DNA of 64,000 nucleotides, taken from NCBI RefSeq assembly GCF_003634695.1, contig NZ_RBWV01000009.1, forward strand, positions 310,001 to 374,000. The letters are read 5' to 3'. Positions 33,057 through 43,343 of this stretch are shown here, piece after piece (within the stretch, counting starts at the first letter, position 1; every line of letters begins with the position of its first letter). The position numbers were made by a program, and so were the translations under genes. The notes beneath the pieces were generated by a model that was given only the letters and a program-made list of their open reading frames with translations, was not told where the DNA came from and made no database searches. The DNA is from Motilibacter peucedani (GTDB taxonomy: Bacteria; Actinomycetota; Actinomycetes; Motilibacterales; Motilibacteraceae).

Positions 33057-35483
33057 TCACCCCGCGCCGTAGGCCTGGAACGCGCACGAGGCGACGAGCT
33101 CACCGGGCGAGCCGAGGTCCAGCCCGCTGCGCGCGGTGTGCAGCGCGCTGGCGACGGGCGTGCCGCGTACGAGCTCGGCGTGCAGCCGCCGCATCAGCGG
33201 CACCACGTCGAGGTCGGGCAGCAGCACGGTGCTCGCGAGCAGTCCTCGCGTGCCGCGGTCGAGCAGCGCGCTGACGAAACCGAGCGACTCCTCGCCCGCG
33301 TAGGTCGTCTGCACCGCTGAGTCGCACGCCGCGAGGACGACCTGCGGCGGCGTACGCGTGCGGCTCCCCAGCTCCTGCACCGTCAGCGCGCCGTCGGTCA
33401 GCACCAGCGACGAGAACAGCGGGTTGTCGACGCGGATGCGGCCGTGGCACGCGAGGTGCGCGAGGTCGGAGCGCTCGACCGCCTCGAGCGTCGCGGCCGG
33501 GGTGCTGTGCGGCGGCTGCAGGCAGGTCGCGCCCGGGTGCTGCTCGGCGAGCGCCGAGACCTCCGCCACCGCGCCGGGCAGCTCGGGACCGGCGACCAGC
33601 GCGACCGTACGCGGTGGTGCGACCGCGCCGACGGTCGATGCCCACACGGTCGCCGAGGGCGCCACCGTGACCGGCCCGTCGTGCAGCGGCGTCCACGGGA
33701 TGTGCTGAAGCGGGCCCGCCGGCACGACGACCAGCGGCGCCGACCGGTCGAGACCCAGCGGCTCCAGCAGTCGCGCGGAGAGCCGCGCGAGCAAGGAGGT
33801 CGTCGACGTACGCGCCGCGTCCTGCGACGCGGCCGGTGCGCCTGCGCGCGCCAGCCGGCGAAGGGCGAACAGCAGCGCGTCGCCGCCGCGGACCGCGTCG
33901 TCGGCGGGGCCGAGGGCGACCAGCCGCGTACGCGTCGGCTCCACCACGACGGCGTGCAGCGTGCCGCGCACCACCGCGTACTCGACGAGGGTGGCGCCGG
34001 CCAGGGCTGCGCGGAGGTCCGCGACCGAGAGGACGGCTGCTGACGACGTACGCAGTGCCGCCGCCCGGGTCCGCTCCATCCACGCCAGCGCGGCCGCCGG
34101 GCGCTGCGACGGCAGCACCGCCTGCATGGCCAGCTCGCCGAGCTCGACGCCGTGCCCGGACGCGTGCGCGCGCAGCTCCATCGAGGGCAGAGCGTCGCGG
34201 TGGCGCGCGAGGTCGGCGAGACCTGCGCGGGCGTGCCGCAGCACCTGCTCGGGCGACCCGGCGGCCAGCGCGCCGGCGACGCGCCCCTTGAGCCTGAGCA
34301 GGACCGGTCCGCGCGATGCCAGCCGACCAGCCTCGGCGAGGTCGGCAGCGCGGCCCGAGACCCGACCGGCGACGAGATAGGCCTCGACCGCTTCCGCGAG
34401 CAGGCCGTGCTCGCGCAGCGCCGCTGCCTGCCGGCGCAGTGCCGCCAGCTGGGCAGCGGTCAGCGAGTCGGCCTGTGCCTCGAGCGCGAGGGCGCTCGCG
34501 CGCACGGCCCAGGGCGTGCGGCCTTGACGCCGGAACGCCCGGGCGGACTTCCGCGCGACCGTCGCCGCCTGGAGACCGTCGCCGGTGAGCAGCAGCAGCC
34601 GAGCCACCCGCAGCTGGGCCTCGGCGCGCATGAGCGGTGTCTGCGCCAGCTCTGTGACGGCTCGTTCGGCGGCCGAGAGCGCCTCCGGGAGCAGCCGCAG
34701 GTCGGCGAGGGCGTCGGCGTACTCCGTGTAGTGCTCGCCGAGTGGCAGCCCAGCGGCGGCGTAGAGCGTGCCGGCCCGCTCGAACAGCGCGATCCCCGCG
34801 ACCGGGCGACCCGCCTGCACGTGCACCCACGCCGCGGTCGAGGTGACACCCGCCTCGGTGGCCGGTCCTGCGGCGGGCGCCTCGGCCGACGCAGCCGCGA
34901 CGTGGCGCAGCGCAGCAGCGTGCCGGCCGAGCTGCGACTCGAGCACCGCGACGTTGTTGGCGGCCTTCACCCGCTCGTCGAGGCTCGACGCGGCGTCCTG
35001 CTCCACCAGGCGCAGCAGCCGCAGCGCCTCCTCGGCCCGCCCGAGGTTGGCGAGCAGCGTCGCCTGCTGGAGCGCGAGCGCGGGCCGCCGCGACCGGGCG
35101 ACCAGGCTGCGGGCGCGCGACAGGTCCCGCTGGGCGGCGTCCGTGCGGCCGAGCTCGGAGAGCACGGCGGCGCGGCTGACGAGCGCGTCGGCGAGGTGGT
35201 CGGCGAGGTCAGGGGCGGCAGACGTACGCACCGCCTCGTCGAGCAGCCGCAGCGCCGTGCGGTGCGCCGACGTGCCGCGGTGCGCCCAGGCCGCAGCTCG
35301 CAACGCGGCTGTCAGGGCTGCCGGGTCACCGGCCTGCCGGGCCTCTGCGAGCAGCTGCAACGCGTGCGGCAGGGCGCCCACCGGGTCCGACCCGGCGTGC
35401 TTGTGCATCTGCTCAGCGCGGAGAAGGATGGCGGGCGCGGGATGATCATCACCACCCCGCGCCGCTCGCTGCACCCGCTCCAC
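33057..35483 (-). CDS. CHAT-domain (caspase-like) protease with N-terminal TPR repeats
   Basis: An 808-residue cytoplasmic protein. Residues 1-~490 are Ala/Leu-rich helical repeats readable as about ten TPR-like units. The C-terminal ~300 residues are a CHAT domain: VVVPAGPLQHIPWTPLHDG, catalytic His680 in LACHGR, FSSLVLTDG and catalytic Cys720 in LAACDSA. CHAT proteins are caspase-like cysteine proteases, often the executioner of bacterial conflict or cell-death systems, with the TPR part sensing or holding the target. GTG at 35481-35483 with GGAGG about ten bases upstream; the frame stays open further but would run into the divergent protease gene. It shares an 86-base divergent promoter region with the S8 protease. 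Confidence 0.9.
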   Translation of the reverse strand: MERVQRAARGGDDHPAPAILLRAEQMHKHAGSDPVGALPHALQLLAEARQAGDPAALTAALRAAAWAHRGTSAHRTALRLLDEAVRTSAAPDLADHLADALVSRAAVLSELGRTDAAQRDLSRARSLVARSRRPALALQQATLLANLGRAEEALRLLRLVEQDAASSLDERVKAANNVAVLESQLGRHAAALRHVAAASAEAPAAGPATEAGVTSTAAWVHVQAGRPVAGIALFERAGTLYAAAGLPLGEHYTEYADALADLRLLPEALSAAERAVTELAQTPLMRAEAQLRVARLLLLTGDGLQAATVARKSARAFRRQGRTPWAVRASALALEAQADSLTAAQLAALRRQAAALREHGLLAEAVEAYLVAGRVSGRAADLAEAGRLASRGPVLLRLKGRVAGALAAGSPEQVLRHARAGLADLARHRDALPSMELRAHASGHGVELGELAMQAVLPSQRPAAALAWMERTRAAALRTSSAAVLSVADLRAALAGATLVEYAVVRGTLHAVVVEPTRTRLVALGPADDAVRGGDALLFALRRLARAGAPAASQDAARTSTTSLLARLSARLLEPLGLDRSAPLVVVPAGPLQHIPWTPLHDGPVTVAPSATVWASTVGAVAPPRTVALVAGPELPGAVAEVSALAEQHPGATCLQPPHSTPAATLEAVERSDLAHLACHGRIRVDNPLFSSLVLTDGALTVQELGSRTRTPPQVVLAACDSAVQTTYAGEESLGFVSALLDRGTRGLLASTVLLPDLDVVPLMRRLHAELVRGTPVASALHTARSGLDLGSPGELVASCAFQAYGAG

Positions 35484-35569
35484 CTGCGACCACCCTCCGG
35501 GTCTCGGCGCACCGAACGTCGCCGAGGCTACTGCCGGGGCCTCGCGGGACGTCCGCGAAGGGAGAGTGC

Positions 35570-36973
35570 ATGGCACAGCAGGACGACGACGGCCTCGGCC
35601 GCTCGCGGCAGGAGGGGCGCCGCGACGCGGGTACGCCGTGGTCCGACGAGCTCCGTGAGCACCGCGACCTCGAGACGCTGAAGGCCGACTCCGAGGCGGT
35701 GCGCCGACAGGCCGGCGGGCTCGACCCGGGCGAGGACCAGGACGCCTGGCGCGACCGGGTCACCCGGCGCATCGTCGCCCAGCGCGCGAAGTTTCCCGAG
35801 CTGCCGCAGGTCGACCTGGTGCGCGACGCCCGCCGGGCGGTGGTGCCGGTGATCCGCGGGGAGCTGCTGCTCCGCTCCGACGTCAAGGCGGACGGGACGC
35901 TCTGGGCGCTGCTGCAGGACTACGGCACCGCCGAGGACGTCGTCGAGCTGGACAGCCGCTTGGTGCGGCTGCGGTCGTCGCTGCCGGCGCGCCGTCTGCA
36001 GGCGCTGGCCCGGTTCGTGCGCGAGCGCGGCTACGAAGCCTCCGTCAACCACGTCACACCACTAGGTCCACTGCTCAAGGGCGAGGGCGGACCAGAGCAG
36101 ACCAAGGCGACCCTCGGCTTCCCCCTCGCCCTGCTCGAGCAGCAGCCGTGGGGTCACGTGACGGTCGCGGTCGTCGACACCGGCGTGGTCCGCGACGAGC
36201 GCGACGACGGCTGGGTCACCGGGCTCCGTGCGCCGGACGCCAGCAACGCCGACCCGCTCGACGAGATCCCGCTCGACGGGCTCCTCGACGTCGGCGCCGG
36301 TCACGGCACGTTCGCCGCGGGCGTCGTGCAGCAGGTGGCGCCGATGGCGAACCTGCTCGTACTGCGCGCGATCCGCAGCGACGGCATCGGTGACGAGGTC
36401 GACGTCGCTGTCAAGATCGTGGAGGCGGTGCGTACGGCTGACCCCGACGCCCCGCTCGTCATCAACCTCTCGCTCGGGGCGGAGACGCTCGACGACCAGC
36501 CGCTGCTGGCCATCGAGGTGGCGCTCGAGATCGCGCACGAGGTGCACCGCGACTGCATGGTCGTCGCCGCGGCCGGCAACTCGGGCTCCACACGCCCGTG
36601 CTTCCCCGCTGCCTCGCGCGACGTGGTCGCGGTCGCCGCCCTCGACGCCGACCTGCAGCCGACGAGCTGGACCAACCGCGGCTTCTGGGTCGACTGCGCG
36701 GTGGTCGGCGAGGGGATCCTCTCGACCTACGTGCCCGGCCACGAGTCGACGCTGGCGGACTTCTCACCGGAGACGTGGGACGCGCCGGACCCCTGGGCGC
36801 TGTGGAGCGGTACGTCGTTCGCCGCCCCGCAGGTCGCCGCCGCCGTCGCGCGGCGGGCGTCCGAGGTCGGGTGCACGACGCACGAGGCGCTCGCGTGGCT
36901 GTTCGCCCAGTCGCCGAGGGTGCCCGACGTCGGCCGCGTGCTCCGGCTGCTGCCGGGCACGCCGGTCACCTGA
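35570..36973 (+). CDS. Intracellular S8 (subtilisin-like) serine protease
   Basis: A 467-residue subtilase without signal peptide or membrane segment. The ~185-residue N-terminal extension is charged and helical (residues 1-80 very rich in Arg, Asp, Glu), then the protease domain: Asp203 in AVVDTGV, His245 in GHGTFAAG, Asn in AAAGNSGS and Ser416 in SGTSFAAP. The triad is complete. A soluble subtilase paired with a CHAT protease suggests regulated proteolysis inside the cell rather than nutrition. GGGAG lies five bases before the ATG. It converges with the sigma-factor operon, six bases between stops, and diverges from the CHAT gene. Confidence 0.92.
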   Translation: MAQQDDDGLGRSRQEGRRDAGTPWSDELREHRDLETLKADSEAVRRQAGGLDPGEDQDAWRDRVTRRIVAQRAKFPELPQVDLVRDARRAVVPVIRGELLLRSDVKADGTLWALLQDYGTAEDVVELDSRLVRLRSSLPARRLQALARFVRERGYEASVNHVTPLGPLLKGEGGPEQTKATLGFPLALLEQQPWGHVTVAVVDTGVVRDERDDGWVTGLRAPDASNADPLDEIPLDGLLDVGAGHGTFAAGVVQQVAPMANLLVLRAIRSDGIGDEVDVAVKIVEAVRTADPDAPLVINLSLGAETLDDQPLLAIEVALEIAHEVHRDCMVVAAAGNSGSTRPCFPAASRDVVAVAALDADLQPTSWTNRGFWVDCAVVGEGILSTYVPGHESTLADFSPETWDAPDPWALWSGTSFAAPQVAAAVARRASEVGCTTHEALAWLFAQSPRVPDVGRVLRLLPGTPVT

Positions 36974-36979
36974 CGCGGC

Positions 36980-37447
36980 TCACAGGTGCATCCACGACGT
37001 CGACACCGGGTCGGCGCCGGGGCGCTCGACGCGCACGCGGACCAGGCCGGGGAGCAGGCCGTCGACGCGGAAGCAGCCGAGCTCGTCGACCTCGCGCTCC
37101 CCGCCCAGGCCGTCGGGGGTGTCGACGCGTACGCGCTCCCCACCGGTCCCGGGCACCAGCTGGCCGAGCAGGCTGACCCGGCCACCGACGTACGACACCT
37201 GCAGCTCGACGGCGAGACCGTCGGCCTGGTATCCGACCAGGCGCGTGCTCGTGGACGCTCCGCGCACTCCCGCGCCGGCGAGGTCGGCGTCCTCGACCAG
37301 CTGCGCCAGCTCGGCGTCGAGGTCGCGCAGCGCGAACAACGCCCGGCAGGCCTCGATCAGCGCCGGCGGGACGGGATCGGCGACCGCGGCCACCCGTCCC
37401 AGCTCGCCGAGCAGTGCACGGTCGGCCGCGCCCAGGGTCTCGCTCAT
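36980..37447 (-). CDS. Small sigma-associated protein with C-terminal beta-sandwich-like segment
   Basis: A 155-residue soluble protein. The N-terminus (PVPPALIEACRALFALRDLDAELAQLVED) is helical; the C-terminus (ELGCFRVDGLLPGLVRVRVERPG, then PVSTSWMHL) resembles a carboxypeptidase-regulatory/Ig-like fold. Proteins of this layout commonly follow an ECF-type sigma gene in actinobacteria. The ATG overlaps the sigma stop (ATGA), so the two are made together; a role in binding or restraining the sigma factor is an inference. It has no zinc-finger anti-sigma motif (HxxxCxxC). Confidence 0.75.
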   Translation of the reverse strand: MSETLGAADRALLGELGRVAAVADPVPPALIEACRALFALRDLDAELAQLVEDADLAGAGVRGASTSTRLVGYQADGLAVELQVSYVGGRVSLLGQLVPGTGGERVRVDTPDGLGGEREVDELGCFRVDGLLPGLVRVRVERPGADPVSTSWMHL

Positions 37448-38082
37448 GACAGACCACCTCCGGTGGCGGGCTCGAAGGAGTAGCCGCCGGCGCGGGTCAG
37501 CGCCCGCAGCCGGTCGAGGCAGCGCATGCGTGTCGGGCCGATCGAGCCGACGGGCATGCCCATGGCCTGCGAGACCTCGGCGTACGCCACGGGCTCGGCT
37601 GCGAGCAGCACCCGCAGCAGGCGCTGGCAGCGCTCCGAGAGCCGGGCGAAGCAGCGCCACAGCTCGGCGTCGCGCTCGTCGGTCAGCAGCCCGAGGTCGG
37701 GCGGCGGGGCAGGGTCGGGCAGCTCGAGCGAGGTGTCCTCGACCGGCGTGGGCAGCTCGCGTCCGGCGCGGCTCAGCACCCGCAGGCACTCGCGCCGCGT
37801 CGTGGTGACCAGCCAGCCGGGCAGCCGTTCGGGGTCCTCGATGCGGCCGAGGTTCTCGAGCAGGCGCAGCCAGCTCGTCTGCACGACGTCGCTCGCGTCG
37901 GCCTCGGTCAGCCGGTGGCTGCGGGCGACCGACCACAGCAGGTTCGTGTAGCGGAGCACGAGCGCGTCCCAGGCCGCCGCGTCCCCCGCTGCTGCGCCGT
38001 GGACCAGCTGGGTCGTCGTTGCGCAGGCGTGTTCCACCCGCGGTTCGGGCAGGCCGCACACCGCGGTCGTGGACTTCGACAT
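37444..38082 (-). CDS. Sigma-70 family (ECF-like) RNA polymerase sigma factor
   Basis: A 212-residue sigma factor with region 2 (YTNLLWSVARSHRLTEADASDVVQTSWLRLLENLGRIEDPERLPGWLVTTTRREC) and region 4 (RLSERCQRLLRVLLAAEPVAYAEVSQAMGMPVGSIGPTRMRCLDRLRAL). ATG with GGGAGG six bases upstream. The gene is followed by the coupled small protein. Together with the neighbouring CHAT and S8 proteases this forms a regulator-plus-two-proteases module; which promoters it reads is unknown. Confidence 0.93.
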   Translation of the reverse strand: MSKSTTAVCGLPEPRVEHACATTTQLVHGAAAGDAAAWDALVLRYTNLLWSVARSHRLTEADASDVVQTSWLRLLENLGRIEDPERLPGWLVTTTRRECLRVLSRAGRELPTPVEDTSLELPDPAPPPDLGLLTDERDAELWRCFARLSERCQRLLRVLLAAEPVAYAEVSQAMGMPVGSIGPTRMRCLDRLRALTRAGGYSFEPATGGGLS

Positions 38083-38156
38083 GCCGGCCTCCCGTGGACC
38101 AGTGGCGGTCTCCTACGGGACAAGAGGGCGGTGGGCAGCGCGGTGATACACCGCGC

Positions 38157-40805
38157 CTAGGCGAGCCCGAGCTCGTCGGCACGGACGACCACGGAGCGCC
38201 GGCTCGCCAGCCCGAGCTTGGTGAGGACCGCAGACACATGGTGATCTGCGGTCTTCGGCGAGATGAAGAGCCGGGTGGCGATCTCGGAGTTCGTGAGTCC
38301 CCGGGCGACCAGGCGAGCCACGTCGAGCTGGCGGTTGGTGAGCCCGCCCGGGTTCGCGCGGGTGCTGGCGCGCGCCCGGGCGGGGACGTGGAGGTCGCTG
38401 TCGCGGCGCAGGTCCACCCGCAGCCGGTCGGCGTTGGCGTAGGCGCCGAGGGCGTCCAGCTCCTCGATGGCGCGCAGCCGGTCCTGAACGTCCGCGGAGT
38501 CCGAGAGCACCATCGCGGCGGAGAAGGGCTCGCCGATCCGCTGCCACGCCACCGCGGCGTCGCGCGCCCGGTTGTCCCCGGCCAGCGCGTAGGGCGGAGC
38601 GACGTCGAGCGGGCTCTCGACGAGCAGGTCCAGCCGGTGCAGCCACGCGCGCAGCTCCCCCACCGCCCACGAGGTGCCGGGTGTCGCGCCGAAGCGCTGG
38701 AGGACCTGCGGCGCGAGCTCGGTGACCCTCGGGTCCGCCTCTCCGGTCAGCCACTGCGCCTCGGCGAGGGCGCTGAGGACGTGGAGCGTACGCAGCGGCT
38801 CGTCGATCCGTCCGGCCAGCGCCCACGCTTCGTCCAGGTGGGTGTGCGCATCGCCCGCCTCGCCCGAGCGGAGCGCCACGAGCGCGACGACGAGGTGCGG
38901 CCACAGCCAGGCCAACGGCATCCCGTCCTCCTCGAGGACCGCGTGCGCGTCCTCCACCGCCGCCTTCCAGCGACCCTCCGCGAGCCGGAGCCGTGAGCGG
39001 AGCGCGGTCTGCCAGTGCTGGCAGATCGGGATGTCGCGGGCGCGCGCGAAGGGCAGGCTCTCCTCGAGCACGTGCTCGGCCGCGCGCAGGCGGCGCTGCT
39101 CGACGTCGAGGTTGAGGACCTGCGAGTAGCCGGTGGAGGCCAGCTCGTCCCAGCCGCTGCTGCGGGCCGTCTCGATGTGCTCGAGGATCTCCTCCCGGGC
39201 CCGCTCGTCGCCCTTGCCGAGCCGCACGTAGCAGCCGAGCAGCTGGCCGCGGAGGACCAGGCCCGGCAGGGCGTGCTCCTGGCCGAGCGTCGCCGCCTCC
39301 TGCCCGTGGAGCACGGTGAGGTCGAGCTCGCTGCGCATGTGGGCCAGGTAGGCACGGGTCGCGCGGGCCGCCCCGAGCGCGGGGCCCGACCCCGCGTCCA
39401 CCGCGAACTGCGCCGCCTGCTCGGCGTGGGCCTCGGCCTCCTTGCGTCGACCCTGGTAGTAGCGGTAGACCGCGCACCGCTCGTGCGCCGCCGAGAGGCC
39501 CGGCAGGTCGGCGGCGATGCGCCACAGCGCGAAGGTGGCGCGTACGTTCGCGACCGCGTCCTCGAGCCGGCTCGTCATGTACTGCTCGAAGCCGAGCAGC
39601 TGCAGCAGCTCGGCCCGCTCCTGTGGCGGTGCGTCAGCGAGGTGCTCCAGCGCGATCTCGAGGAAGGCCGCCGCCTCGCTGTGCGAGCCGGCCCGGGCGG
39701 CCTGCTCGGCCGCCTCTCGCGCGTACCGCGCCGCGCGTCCGGCGTCGCGGGCGGACACCGCGTGGTGCGTGAGCACTGCCGGGTCGCGGGGGTCGAGGCG
39801 CTCCAGCGCGTCGAGCAGCCGCCGGTGCAGGCGGTGAGCGCCTCCCGGCGGGATCGTGCTCTCGACGGCCTGGCGCGCGAGCTCGTGGCGCAGGGCGATC
39901 CCGTCGCGGGAGTGGGTGAGCAGCCCGGTGACGCCGAGCCGGCGCAGGGTCGGCAGGCCCACGCCGAGCGCGGCCAGCGCGCGGTCCCCGAGCCCGTCGG
40001 GTGCGGTCGCGACGAGCTGCAGGACCTCGAAGTCCTCGGCCGAAATCTCCGCCGTGCGCGCCAGCACGGCGTCCCGGACGGAGCCCGGCAGCGGGCGGTC
40101 CGGGTCCTTGGCGATCTCCGTGACGAAGTAGGGGTTGCCGCCCGTGATCCGGTGGACCCGCTCAGGGTCCAGCGCCGTTCCCGACAGCAGCGTGCGTACG
40201 CCGGCCACGGTCAGCGGCCCCAGCGGGAGCGTCCGCACGTCCTCGTTGAGCGCGAGGTCGCCGAGCAGCGGTCGTGCCGGGTGCGACTGTCCGACCTCCA
40301 GGTCGCGGTAGCTGACCAGCAGAGCGAGCGGCATGGAGCCGATGCGGCGCACGAGGAAGCGCAGGACCTCGGCGGTCGCCGCGTCCACCCAGTGCAGGTC
40401 CTCGACGACGAGCACCGTGGGCTCGGACCGCAGCCAGTCGTAGAGCTCCTCGCACACCGACGGCAGGGGCACGTCCGGCTGGTGCTGCAGCGGCGCCGAC
40501 GGCACCTGCGCGGCGATGTCGCGGAACGGCCCCAGCGGCCGCGGCGTGCTCAGCGGGTCGCAGCCGCCGCGCAGTACGCGTACGCCGCCGGTGCGCACGC
40601 AGGCTGCGGCGAGCAGCGCCGACTTCCCCGTGCCGGCTTCGCCGGCCAGTGCGACGCCGCCTCCCGTGCCGGAGCGCGCGCCGTCGACGACCGCCCGCAA
40701 CAGGGCGGTCTCGTGGTCTCGCTCGACGAGGTCCACGCGCTCAGCGTAGGGGGCGAGGGCTCGCTCCCGGAAGGGATCGCGCTGCCGGACGAGGGTCGTG
40801 CTCAT
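38157..40805 (-). CDS. Large ATP-binding LuxR-family (LAL) transcriptional regulator
   Basis: An 882-residue regulator. Residues ~28-300 are a STAND-type ATPase (Walker A GEAGTGKSAL, Walker B VLVVEDLHWVD, sensor GGNPYFVTEI); a long helical TPR-like middle follows; the last ~65 residues are a LuxR HTH (LTNRQLDVARLVARGLTNSEIATRLFISPKTADHHVSAVLTKLG). Such proteins switch transcription in response to a ligand bound by the middle part. The ATG at 40803-40805 was preferred; further upstream frame lacks a start site. It ends 74 bases upstream of the sigma gene on the same strand, so it could belong to the module or be independent. Confidence 0.92.
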   Translation of the reverse strand: MSTTLVRQRDPFRERALAPYAERVDLVERDHETALLRAVVDGARSGTGGGVALAGEAGTGKSALLAAACVRTGGVRVLRGGCDPLSTPRPLGPFRDIAAQVPSAPLQHQPDVPLPSVCEELYDWLRSEPTVLVVEDLHWVDAATAEVLRFLVRRIGSMPLALLVSYRDLEVGQSHPARPLLGDLALNEDVRTLPLGPLTVAGVRTLLSGTALDPERVHRITGGNPYFVTEIAKDPDRPLPGSVRDAVLARTAEISAEDFEVLQLVATAPDGLGDRALAALGVGLPTLRRLGVTGLLTHSRDGIALRHELARQAVESTIPPGGAHRLHRRLLDALERLDPRDPAVLTHHAVSARDAGRAARYAREAAEQAARAGSHSEAAAFLEIALEHLADAPPQERAELLQLLGFEQYMTSRLEDAVANVRATFALWRIAADLPGLSAAHERCAVYRYYQGRRKEAEAHAEQAAQFAVDAGSGPALGAARATRAYLAHMRSELDLTVLHGQEAATLGQEHALPGLVLRGQLLGCYVRLGKGDERAREEILEHIETARSSGWDELASTGYSQVLNLDVEQRRLRAAEHVLEESLPFARARDIPICQHWQTALRSRLRLAEGRWKAAVEDAHAVLEEDGMPLAWLWPHLVVALVALRSGEAGDAHTHLDEAWALAGRIDEPLRTLHVLSALAEAQWLTGEADPRVTELAPQVLQRFGATPGTSWAVGELRAWLHRLDLLVESPLDVAPPYALAGDNRARDAAVAWQRIGEPFSAAMVLSDSADVQDRLRAIEELDALGAYANADRLRVDLRRDSDLHVPARARASTRANPGGLTNRQLDVARLVARGLTNSEIATRLFISPKTADHHVSAVLTKLGLASRRSVVVRADELGLA

Positions 40806-41957: not shown

Positions 41958-42121
41958 GGGGACCTCCTCGCTCGCTCAACTGTCAGTGCGTCGCGGCTGC
42001 TGGAAGTGACCCTCGCTACGGCTGAGCCAGCAGCTTGCTCACGGGACCGCGCGCTCATCCCGCACATGCCGTCTCCGTAGTGCGACGGGACATCGCAGGG
42101 CGATTTAACGGACATGCCGGC

Positions 42122-43343
42122 GGTCTCAGGGGGTCAGCGCAACACTCGTTGGATCCGCCAGGGACGGAGGGTGTCGTGCCGCATGGTGACTACGAGAAGC
42201 TGACACCGGAGACGATCGACGCGCTGTGGGTGCGTCTGCGATCGGGGGTGGCGGCCAAGCCCGCGGCCCGCTCGCTCGGACTGTGCCCGGGCACGGTGCG
42301 GGCTTACCTCATTCGTTGTGGCGGAGTGCGTCCGGAGCCGCGCCAGCGTGCCCGTGACCATTTAGGGCTCCAGGAAAGGGAGGAGATTTCCCGCGGGCTG
42401 GCCGCCGGGAAATCGCTGCGCCGAATCGCTAGTGAGCTGGGGCGGGCGCCCTCGACGGTCAGCCGTGAAGTCGCCCGTCACGGCGGTCGAGGCCGCTACC
42501 GAGCCGCTCGCGCAGACCAGGACGCCTGGGCCCGGGCAGCGCGACCGAAACGCTGCAAGCTCGCGGCCAACACCGAGCTGCGGCGGATCGTGCAGGACAG
42601 ACTGGAGCACCGGTGGTCACCTGCGCAGATCGCCGGCTGGCTGCGGCTCGAGTACCCGGGAGACCCGACCATGCAGGTCTCACACGAAAGCATCTACCTC
42701 AGCCTGTATGTGCAGTCCCGGGGCGCCCTGCGCAAAGAGCTCACCCGCTACCTGCGCACCGGTCGGGTGCTGCGCCGCCCGAAAGGGGTCCGGCTCCCCG
42801 ACGGCAGGGGTGGGCGGCCGAACACGCTGCACATCTCTCAACGTCCCGCCGAAGCGGCGGATCGCGCGGTGCCCGGGCACTGGGAGGGCGACCTGGTGTT
42901 CGGCCGGGCGATGAGCCCGGTCGCGACCCTGGTCGAGCGCTCGACCCGCTACCTGATGCTTGTGGCACTGCCGCGCGGCGACCACCAGGCCGACGCCGTC
43001 GCCGACGCCCTCGCGGCCGCCATCACCACGCTGCCGCAGCACCTGGCCAAGTCGTTGACCTGGGACCTCGGGCACGAGATGGCGCAGCATCAACGCTTCT
43101 CCGCCGAGACCTGGAATGATTGTCTATTTCTGCGACCCAAAATCGCCGTGGCAGCGAGGCAGCAATGAGAACACCAACGGCCTGCTCCGCCAGTACCTGC
43201 CTCGGACCCTCAACTTCCGCACGCTCAGCCAGGACGACCTCGACGTCATCGCGCGCGAGCTGAACGAGCGCCCTCGACAGACCCTTGGATTCAAGACACC
43301 ATCACAAGCACTCGCCGAGGTGTTGCACTAACCGCCTGAACCC
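42122..43343 (+). mobile_element. IS30-family insertion sequence (about 1.2 kb)
   Basis: Bounded by imperfect ~24-bp inverted repeats at 42122-42145 and 43320-43343 (19 of 24 positions match; both contain GCAACAC inward). It contains one IS30-type transposase gene whose TAA stop lies inside the right repeat. No clear target-site duplication is visible. It marks the left edge of the accessory segment. Confidence 0.8.
42176..43331 (+). pseudogene. IS30 transposase, frameshifted
   Basis: GTG at 42176 with CGGAGGG upstream. The first 310 residues carry the HTH region (LRRIASELGRAPSTVSREVARHGGRGRYRA) and the first two acidic residues of the DDE site (GHWEGDLVFG, LTWDLGHEM). One extra T at about 43112 (ACCTGGAATG where ACCGGAATG is expected) shifts the frame, so the first frame stops at 43168; the rest, including the final Glu in GSNENTNGLLRQYLP, continues in the next frame to the TAA at 43331. 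A single-base insertion is the simplest cause. A programmed +1 frameshift is possible but not usual for IS30. Confidence 0.85.

Follow-up and report, generated by a model that had tools for sequence, protein, structure and literature searches.

Four genes at the locus

The stretch of Motilibacter peucedani DNA analysed here, 64,000 nucleotides in all and hereafter called the window, carries a compact group of four genes encoding a TPR-CHAT caspase-like cysteine protease (CHAT), an S8-family subtilase (S8), an extracytoplasmic function (ECF) sigma factor (SIG) and SMALL, a short protein with a predicted beta sandwich. Coordinates of these genes and of a candidate promoter are given in Table 1. 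An initial annotation of the window had already described the group, and most of its description stood: open frames place all four genes where it had put them, with clear Pfam matches for CHAT, S8 and SIG and no good one for SMALL, and the residues that it named His680 and Cys720 are indeed those of the CHAT active site. It had S8 converging on the sigma factor across six bases; the spacing is right, but the gene on the far side is SMALL, with SIG behind it. Similarly, its divergent gap of 86 bases between S8 and CHAT applies if CHAT starts at the GTG, and becomes 161 bases with the alternative ATG.

Table 1. Positions in the window of the four genes, the CHAT landmarks and the candidate promoter
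Feature	Position	Strand	Basis
TPR-CHAT caspase-like cysteine protease (CHAT)	33057..35483	-	Pfam PF12770 E 3.5e-24; Csx29 structures nearest; homologue alignment
CHAT start codon options	GTG 35483; alternative ATG 35408	-	
CHAT domain	33123..33791	-	Pfam match, residues 596-818 of the 839-residue open frame
Catalytic His of CHAT (H655 from the ATG, His680 in the initial annotation)	33444..33446	-	Kept in 130/133 homologues
Catalytic Cys of CHAT (C695 from the ATG, Cys720 in the initial annotation)	33324..33326	-	Kept in 130/133 homologues
S8 subtilase, cytosolic, prodomain-like N-terminal region	35570..36973	+	Pfam PF00082 (Peptidase_S8) E 3.7e-18
SMALL, 155 residues, N-terminal helices and beta sandwich, proposed sigma inhibitor	36980..37447	-	AlphaFold2 (AF2) model
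SIG, ECF sigma factor	37444..38082	-	Sigma70_r2 (PF04542) E 4.2e-12; TIGR02937
Candidate promoter GTATCA-N17-CTCT	38123..38149	-	41 bases 5' of SIG; pattern scans, sequence, orientation, enrichment

The solved structures nearest to CHAT are chains of Csx29, itself a TPR-CHAT protein; against the NCBIfam Csx29 model CHAT scores 18.6 bits, where the cut-off is 300, and it is therefore not Csx29 itself. The S8 triad given in the initial annotation (Asp203, His245, Ser416) is invariant across 58 homologues, as is the oxyanion residue N337. Its structural model, with a predicted local distance difference test (pLDDT) score of 83.5, shows an N-terminal part like a prodomain; unprocessed pro-subtilisins are the structures that match it best. 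Against the type VII secretion system mycosin model S8 reaches 81.6 bits, with an equivalog cut-off of 278.75, and it has no secretion signal, as the initial annotation had stated: its N-terminus is not hydrophobic. Across the families, a strongly hydrophobic N-terminus was found in none of CHAT, S8, SIG and SMALL with the exception of three S8 relatives, and from their sequences all four module proteins look cytosolic.

SIG scores 66.8 bits against TIGR02937 (cut-off 42.9), and its structural matches are ECF sigma structures. Its stop overlaps the start of SMALL by 4 bases. SMALL is modelled with a pLDDT of 84 as two N-terminal helices followed by a seven-strand beta sandwich, in agreement with the beta-sandwich-like small protein first proposed to follow the sigma factor; a weak similarity to CarboxypepD_reg appears in 21 of 58 members. 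Searching the region against Rfam returned no matches.

Conservation and correlated evolution of the module

A second complete four-gene set lies in the window's own genome, ~240 kb away. To survey the grouping more widely, loci were collected with the CHAT alignment, taking one genome per species; gene calls at these related loci came from a custom codon-based caller, and gene starts there are approximate. The 80 loci obtained come from Cellulomonas, Micromonospora, Streptosporangiales, Pseudonocardiales, Kineosporia, Pseudofrankia and Acidimicrobiia, among others, and three seed loci bring the total to 83. All four genes stand side by side at 62 of the 83, most commonly in the order SMALL<-SIG<-S8 followed divergently by CHAT->. 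In a separate sample anchored on SMALL instead of CHAT (59 loci, largely one or two copies per genus), the neighbours are SIG at 54, CHAT at 45 and S8 at 39; SIG-SMALL accompanied by CHAT but not S8 occurs at nine of these loci, and by S8 but not CHAT at two. Of 137 SMALL copies, 126 come directly after SIG, and in 83 the two genes overlap or abut.

Gene presence follows the same pattern. Across 297 genomes of the class, CHAT is present in 92 of the 93 that carry SMALL and in 65 of the 204 that do not (Fisher p 2e-32), SMALL itself occurring in 50 of the 114 genera sampled. The four-gene grouping is far beyond chance. The conserved order of sigma factor, small protein, S8 and CHAT anticipated in the initial annotation is thus seen in neighbourhoods, SMALL and CHAT also co-vary in presence, and the neighbourhood is not limited to close relatives, the module being widespread in Actinomycetota. 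A literature search found no description of the four-gene module, although a published ECF classification may already number the SIG group or list its neighbourhood.

Several genomes have the set in two halves far from each other, a SIG-SMALL pair and an S8-CHAT pair, both of them present. A SepH-like / thymidine-kinase-like locus is a recurrent site, across several families, of SIG-SMALL pairs away from the proteases (L177, L146, L168 and similar), and at one further locus, L201, SIG stands alone at such a site.

We then compared protein distances by partial correlation, using 97 complete sets (60 after near-duplicate removal) and bootstrap intervals. The correlation was 0.59 for SIG-SMALL, 0.41 for SMALL-CHAT, 0.31 for S8-CHAT (95% interval 0.17-0.48) and -0.05 for SMALL-S8, and the bootstrap intervals separate SMALL-CHAT from SMALL-S8. 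The distances form a chain, SIG-SMALL-CHAT-S8; gene order alone would predict a SIG-S8 link, not SMALL-CHAT. SMALL is probably the hub of the module. The co-evolution of CHAT and S8 that is left once the other partners are accounted for is what a relation between the two proteases would predict. At the level of residues, co-variation between SIG and SMALL (126 pairs) exceeds that of shuffled pairings and is too shallow to map an interface.

A promoter motif and its predicted regulon

A bipartite intergenic motif, TGTATCA-N16/17-CTC[T/C]G, recurs at the module, usually with a gene 30 to 100 bases downstream and with a spacer that peaks sharply at 16. Its direction is fixed by sites outside divergent regions: the opposite reading, GAG-N16-TGATAC on the strand of CHAT and serving that gene as promoter, was rejected because non-divergent sites show the reverse direction, GTATCA-N16-CTC. 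The motif was found 5' of S8 in 41 of 113 cases (Fisher p 1e-36) and of SIG in 12 of 131, but before CHAT in 0 of 135 and before other genes in 17 of 1420. This enrichment holds in SMALL-anchored loci unused for discovery (13/96 versus 9/537, p 1.6e-6). Genome-wide, with the reversed motif as its own control, 249 matches against 125 were counted in 41 genomes with SMALL, and 144 against 136 in 36 genomes lacking it, so that the excess appears only where SMALL is present. The motif also follows the genes when they part: in one genome (G001), where SIG lies at a distance from S8 and SMALL, both places have the motif, and in another (G004) S8 carries the motif far from SIG. These sequence patterns strongly suggest that SIG is the sigma factor using the GTATCA-CTC motif. 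Control of the module by its sigma factor, as the initial annotation had envisaged, is supported by the conserved grouping and by the tie between motif and SMALL-carrying genomes.

Of 59 motif sites examined in five genomes of the family, only 4 fall within genes, and for 45 a gene begins no more than 300 bases away. Among the predicted targets are flavin adenine dinucleotide (FAD)-linked oxidase-like proteins in four genomes (Pfam confirms one, and the rest were recognised by the similarity of their starts). Haem peroxidases are targets in two genomes, and the list also has AIM24, Spo0M, DUF2252 and secreted proteins. As judged from these sites, the set looks like a sigma regulon with the sigma factor's own unit among its members.

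Beside the second module of the window's own genome, a papain-like protein (L009, 11628-12338) has the GTATCA-CTC motif 34 bases upstream. With its QGxxGSC...NSWG motifs and a cysteine protease as best PDB match (E 9e-7), it is a third protease in the predicted regulon. Modules of Micromonospora and Verrucosispora (L078-L121) carry no GTATCA promoter; many adjoin LacI/sugar-transport genes, and two to three of the S8 copies among them have a hydrophobic N-terminus. They are possibly a rewired branch. In the window, a large AAA/LuxR-type regulator (38157-40805, minus strand), which has the same orientation as the SIG promoter, ends just 5' of it, and an IS30-like transposase frame, recognised by eye, lies ~4 kb from the module (42035-43168, plus strand) with an end that looks truncated.

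A putative protease-linked sigma switch

We consider it about an even call that the module is a cytosolic protease-linked sigma switch, in which SMALL inhibits SIG and is itself removed by CHAT, S8 acting either on CHAT or jointly with it. Directly supported are the gene content and its conservation, the intact active sites, the lack of signal peptides, the link of the promoter to SIG and SMALL, and the chain of protein distances. In the proposed mechanism, SIG would use TGTATCA-N16/17-CTC[T/C]G promoters to transcribe a limited number of other genes along with its own unit, which comprises S8-SIG-SMALL or, if SIG is the first gene (as in the window), SIG-SMALL. SMALL, translationally coupled to SIG, would bind it and hold it inactive, as their co-evolution and gene coupling suggest. 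An input signal, presumably received through the TPR region, would activate CHAT, which would cleave or otherwise remove SMALL; the freed SIG could then raise its own level and that of its unit by positive feedback. S8, made in a proenzyme-like form, may work alongside CHAT or on it, perhaps by cutting it, and could be the activator of CHAT or its off-switch. Removal of SMALL by CHAT would have a precedent in the TPR-CHAT protease Csx29, which cleaves Csx30, an inhibitor of an ECF sigma factor (PMC10028731).

Several observations weigh against this proposal. SMALL matches no known anti-sigma domain, its only similarity being the weak one to CarboxypepD_reg, and a fold search with its model returned generic Ig-like sandwiches, none at E <= 0.001. 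Its helices are only weakly favoured among the top co-varying SIG/SMALL pairs (40-46%, with 38% expected). A number of SIG-SMALL pairs have neither protease nearby, though in the genomes checked the proteases are encoded elsewhere, and in G001 SMALL lies beside S8 and not beside SIG. An exact motif match is missing at 76 of 125 SIG-carrying loci, those of Micromonospora included.

The roles of the two proteases could also be exchanged, with SMALL removed by S8, which shares the operon of SIG and SMALL. The S8 prodomain region would then serve as sensor, and CHAT would be an effector whose synthesis or activation follows the turning-on of the switch. Such an arrangement would fit the commonest gene order, where S8, SIG and SMALL share one strand and CHAT is divergent, as well as the pro-subtilisin fold of S8 and the location of the promoter 5' of S8. 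We nevertheless find it rather unlikely: SMALL correlates with CHAT and not with S8, SIG-SMALL is found with CHAT alone more often than with S8 alone, and the motif is completely absent before CHAT. SMALL might instead be a positive partner or sensor of SIG, a ligand-binding sandwich, the proteases being regulon members that are kept nearby. Its weak likeness to carboxypeptidase regulatory domains and the SIG-SMALL pairs that stand away from proteases would agree with this role. It is made improbable by a SMALL-CHAT co-evolution beyond what SIG and S8 explain, by the near confinement of SMALL to CHAT-carrying genomes and by loci that hold SMALL, S8 and CHAT with no adjoining SIG.

The initial annotation had inferred a proteolytic cascade, one protease activating the other under sigma control, and a defence role; in such a reading CHAT and S8 would be an executioner pair killing infected cells and sigma control would only set the dose. 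Both active sites are intact and the CHAT protease Csx29 acts in a type III-E CRISPR system (PMC10028731), yet the defence role found no support here and we judge such a defence cascade distinctly improbable. PADLOC system models gave only partial, weak and unconvincing matches (BovA at E 9e-4 for CHAT; a generic subtilase model at E 2e-6 and IetS at E 2e-4 for S8), and the predicted targets are of secreted, redox or developmental type. Many modules occupy core chromosomal sites: in Cellulomonas (L043-L057) the entire module interrupts the run secE-nusG-rplK-rplA-rplJ-rplL-rpoB-rpoC, where it separates rplA from rplJ (identities read from the sequences), and CHAT and S8 are also found between clpS-DUF2017 and genes for a JAB-like and a small MoaD-like protein (flank identities by eye). 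Such placement is unlike that of mobile defence islands, though compatible with a defence use.

Relation to known protease-sigma systems

CHAT proteases have become known chiefly in CRISPR and cell death, and the present one appears to be a standing part of a sigma-factor switch. In type III-E CRISPR systems, the TPR-CHAT protease Csx29 cleaves Csx30 and thereby relieves inhibition of an ECF sigma factor (PMC10028731). Like this CASP/Craspase arm (Csx29, Csx30, CASP-sigma), the module encodes a TPR-CHAT protease and an ECF sigma factor in one locus, with putative sigma sites in the locus itself. It differs in being chromosomal and widespread in Actinomycetota, in adding an S8 subtilase, and in having no CRISPR effector seen beside it: the genes flanking the window's module and the recurrent neighbours elsewhere are ribosomal, transport and ordinary genes with no Cas7-11 (gRAMP) among them, though no dedicated Cas7-11 search was made. 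SMALL, at 155 residues, also has no detectable similarity to Csx30, whose chains matched neither the SMALL profile nor the SMALL model.

It is possible, if somewhat doubtful, that the module is a CRISPR-free chromosomal counterpart of the Craspase arm, perhaps ancestral to it, in which TPR-CHAT cleaves a cytosolic beta-sandwich anti-sigma factor to free an ECF sigma factor across Actinomycetota, the proenzyme subtilase being an extra upstream or feedback protease. If true, this would give transcription regulation by TPR-CHAT proteases a native setting outside CRISPR and suggest a possible origin of the Craspase wiring, with a promoter and a candidate inhibitor ready for testing. For the SMALL family, previously without a function, the analysis provides a first functional lead.

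Other systems share parts of this design. CalpL/CalpT/CalpS, from type III CRISPR, is likewise a three-part switch of cytosolic protease, cytosolic anti-sigma factor and ECF sigma factor, but its protease is a SAVED-Lon enzyme gated by cyclic oligoadenylate, and it has no CHAT or subtilase (PMC11417357). Caspase/EACC2 systems combine a caspase-superfamily protease, TPR and an ECF sigma factor in one neighbourhood, with a transcription output proposed, whereas CHAT and subtilases are unmentioned in their description (PMC8195603). In the DegS/RseA/sigmaE pathway (as described in PMC10028731), proteolysis of an inhibitor again frees an ECF sigma factor, but the anti-sigma factor there is a membrane protein and the present module looks cytosolic throughout. 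The module resembles the wiring of Craspase and of CalpL/T/S but belongs to neither.

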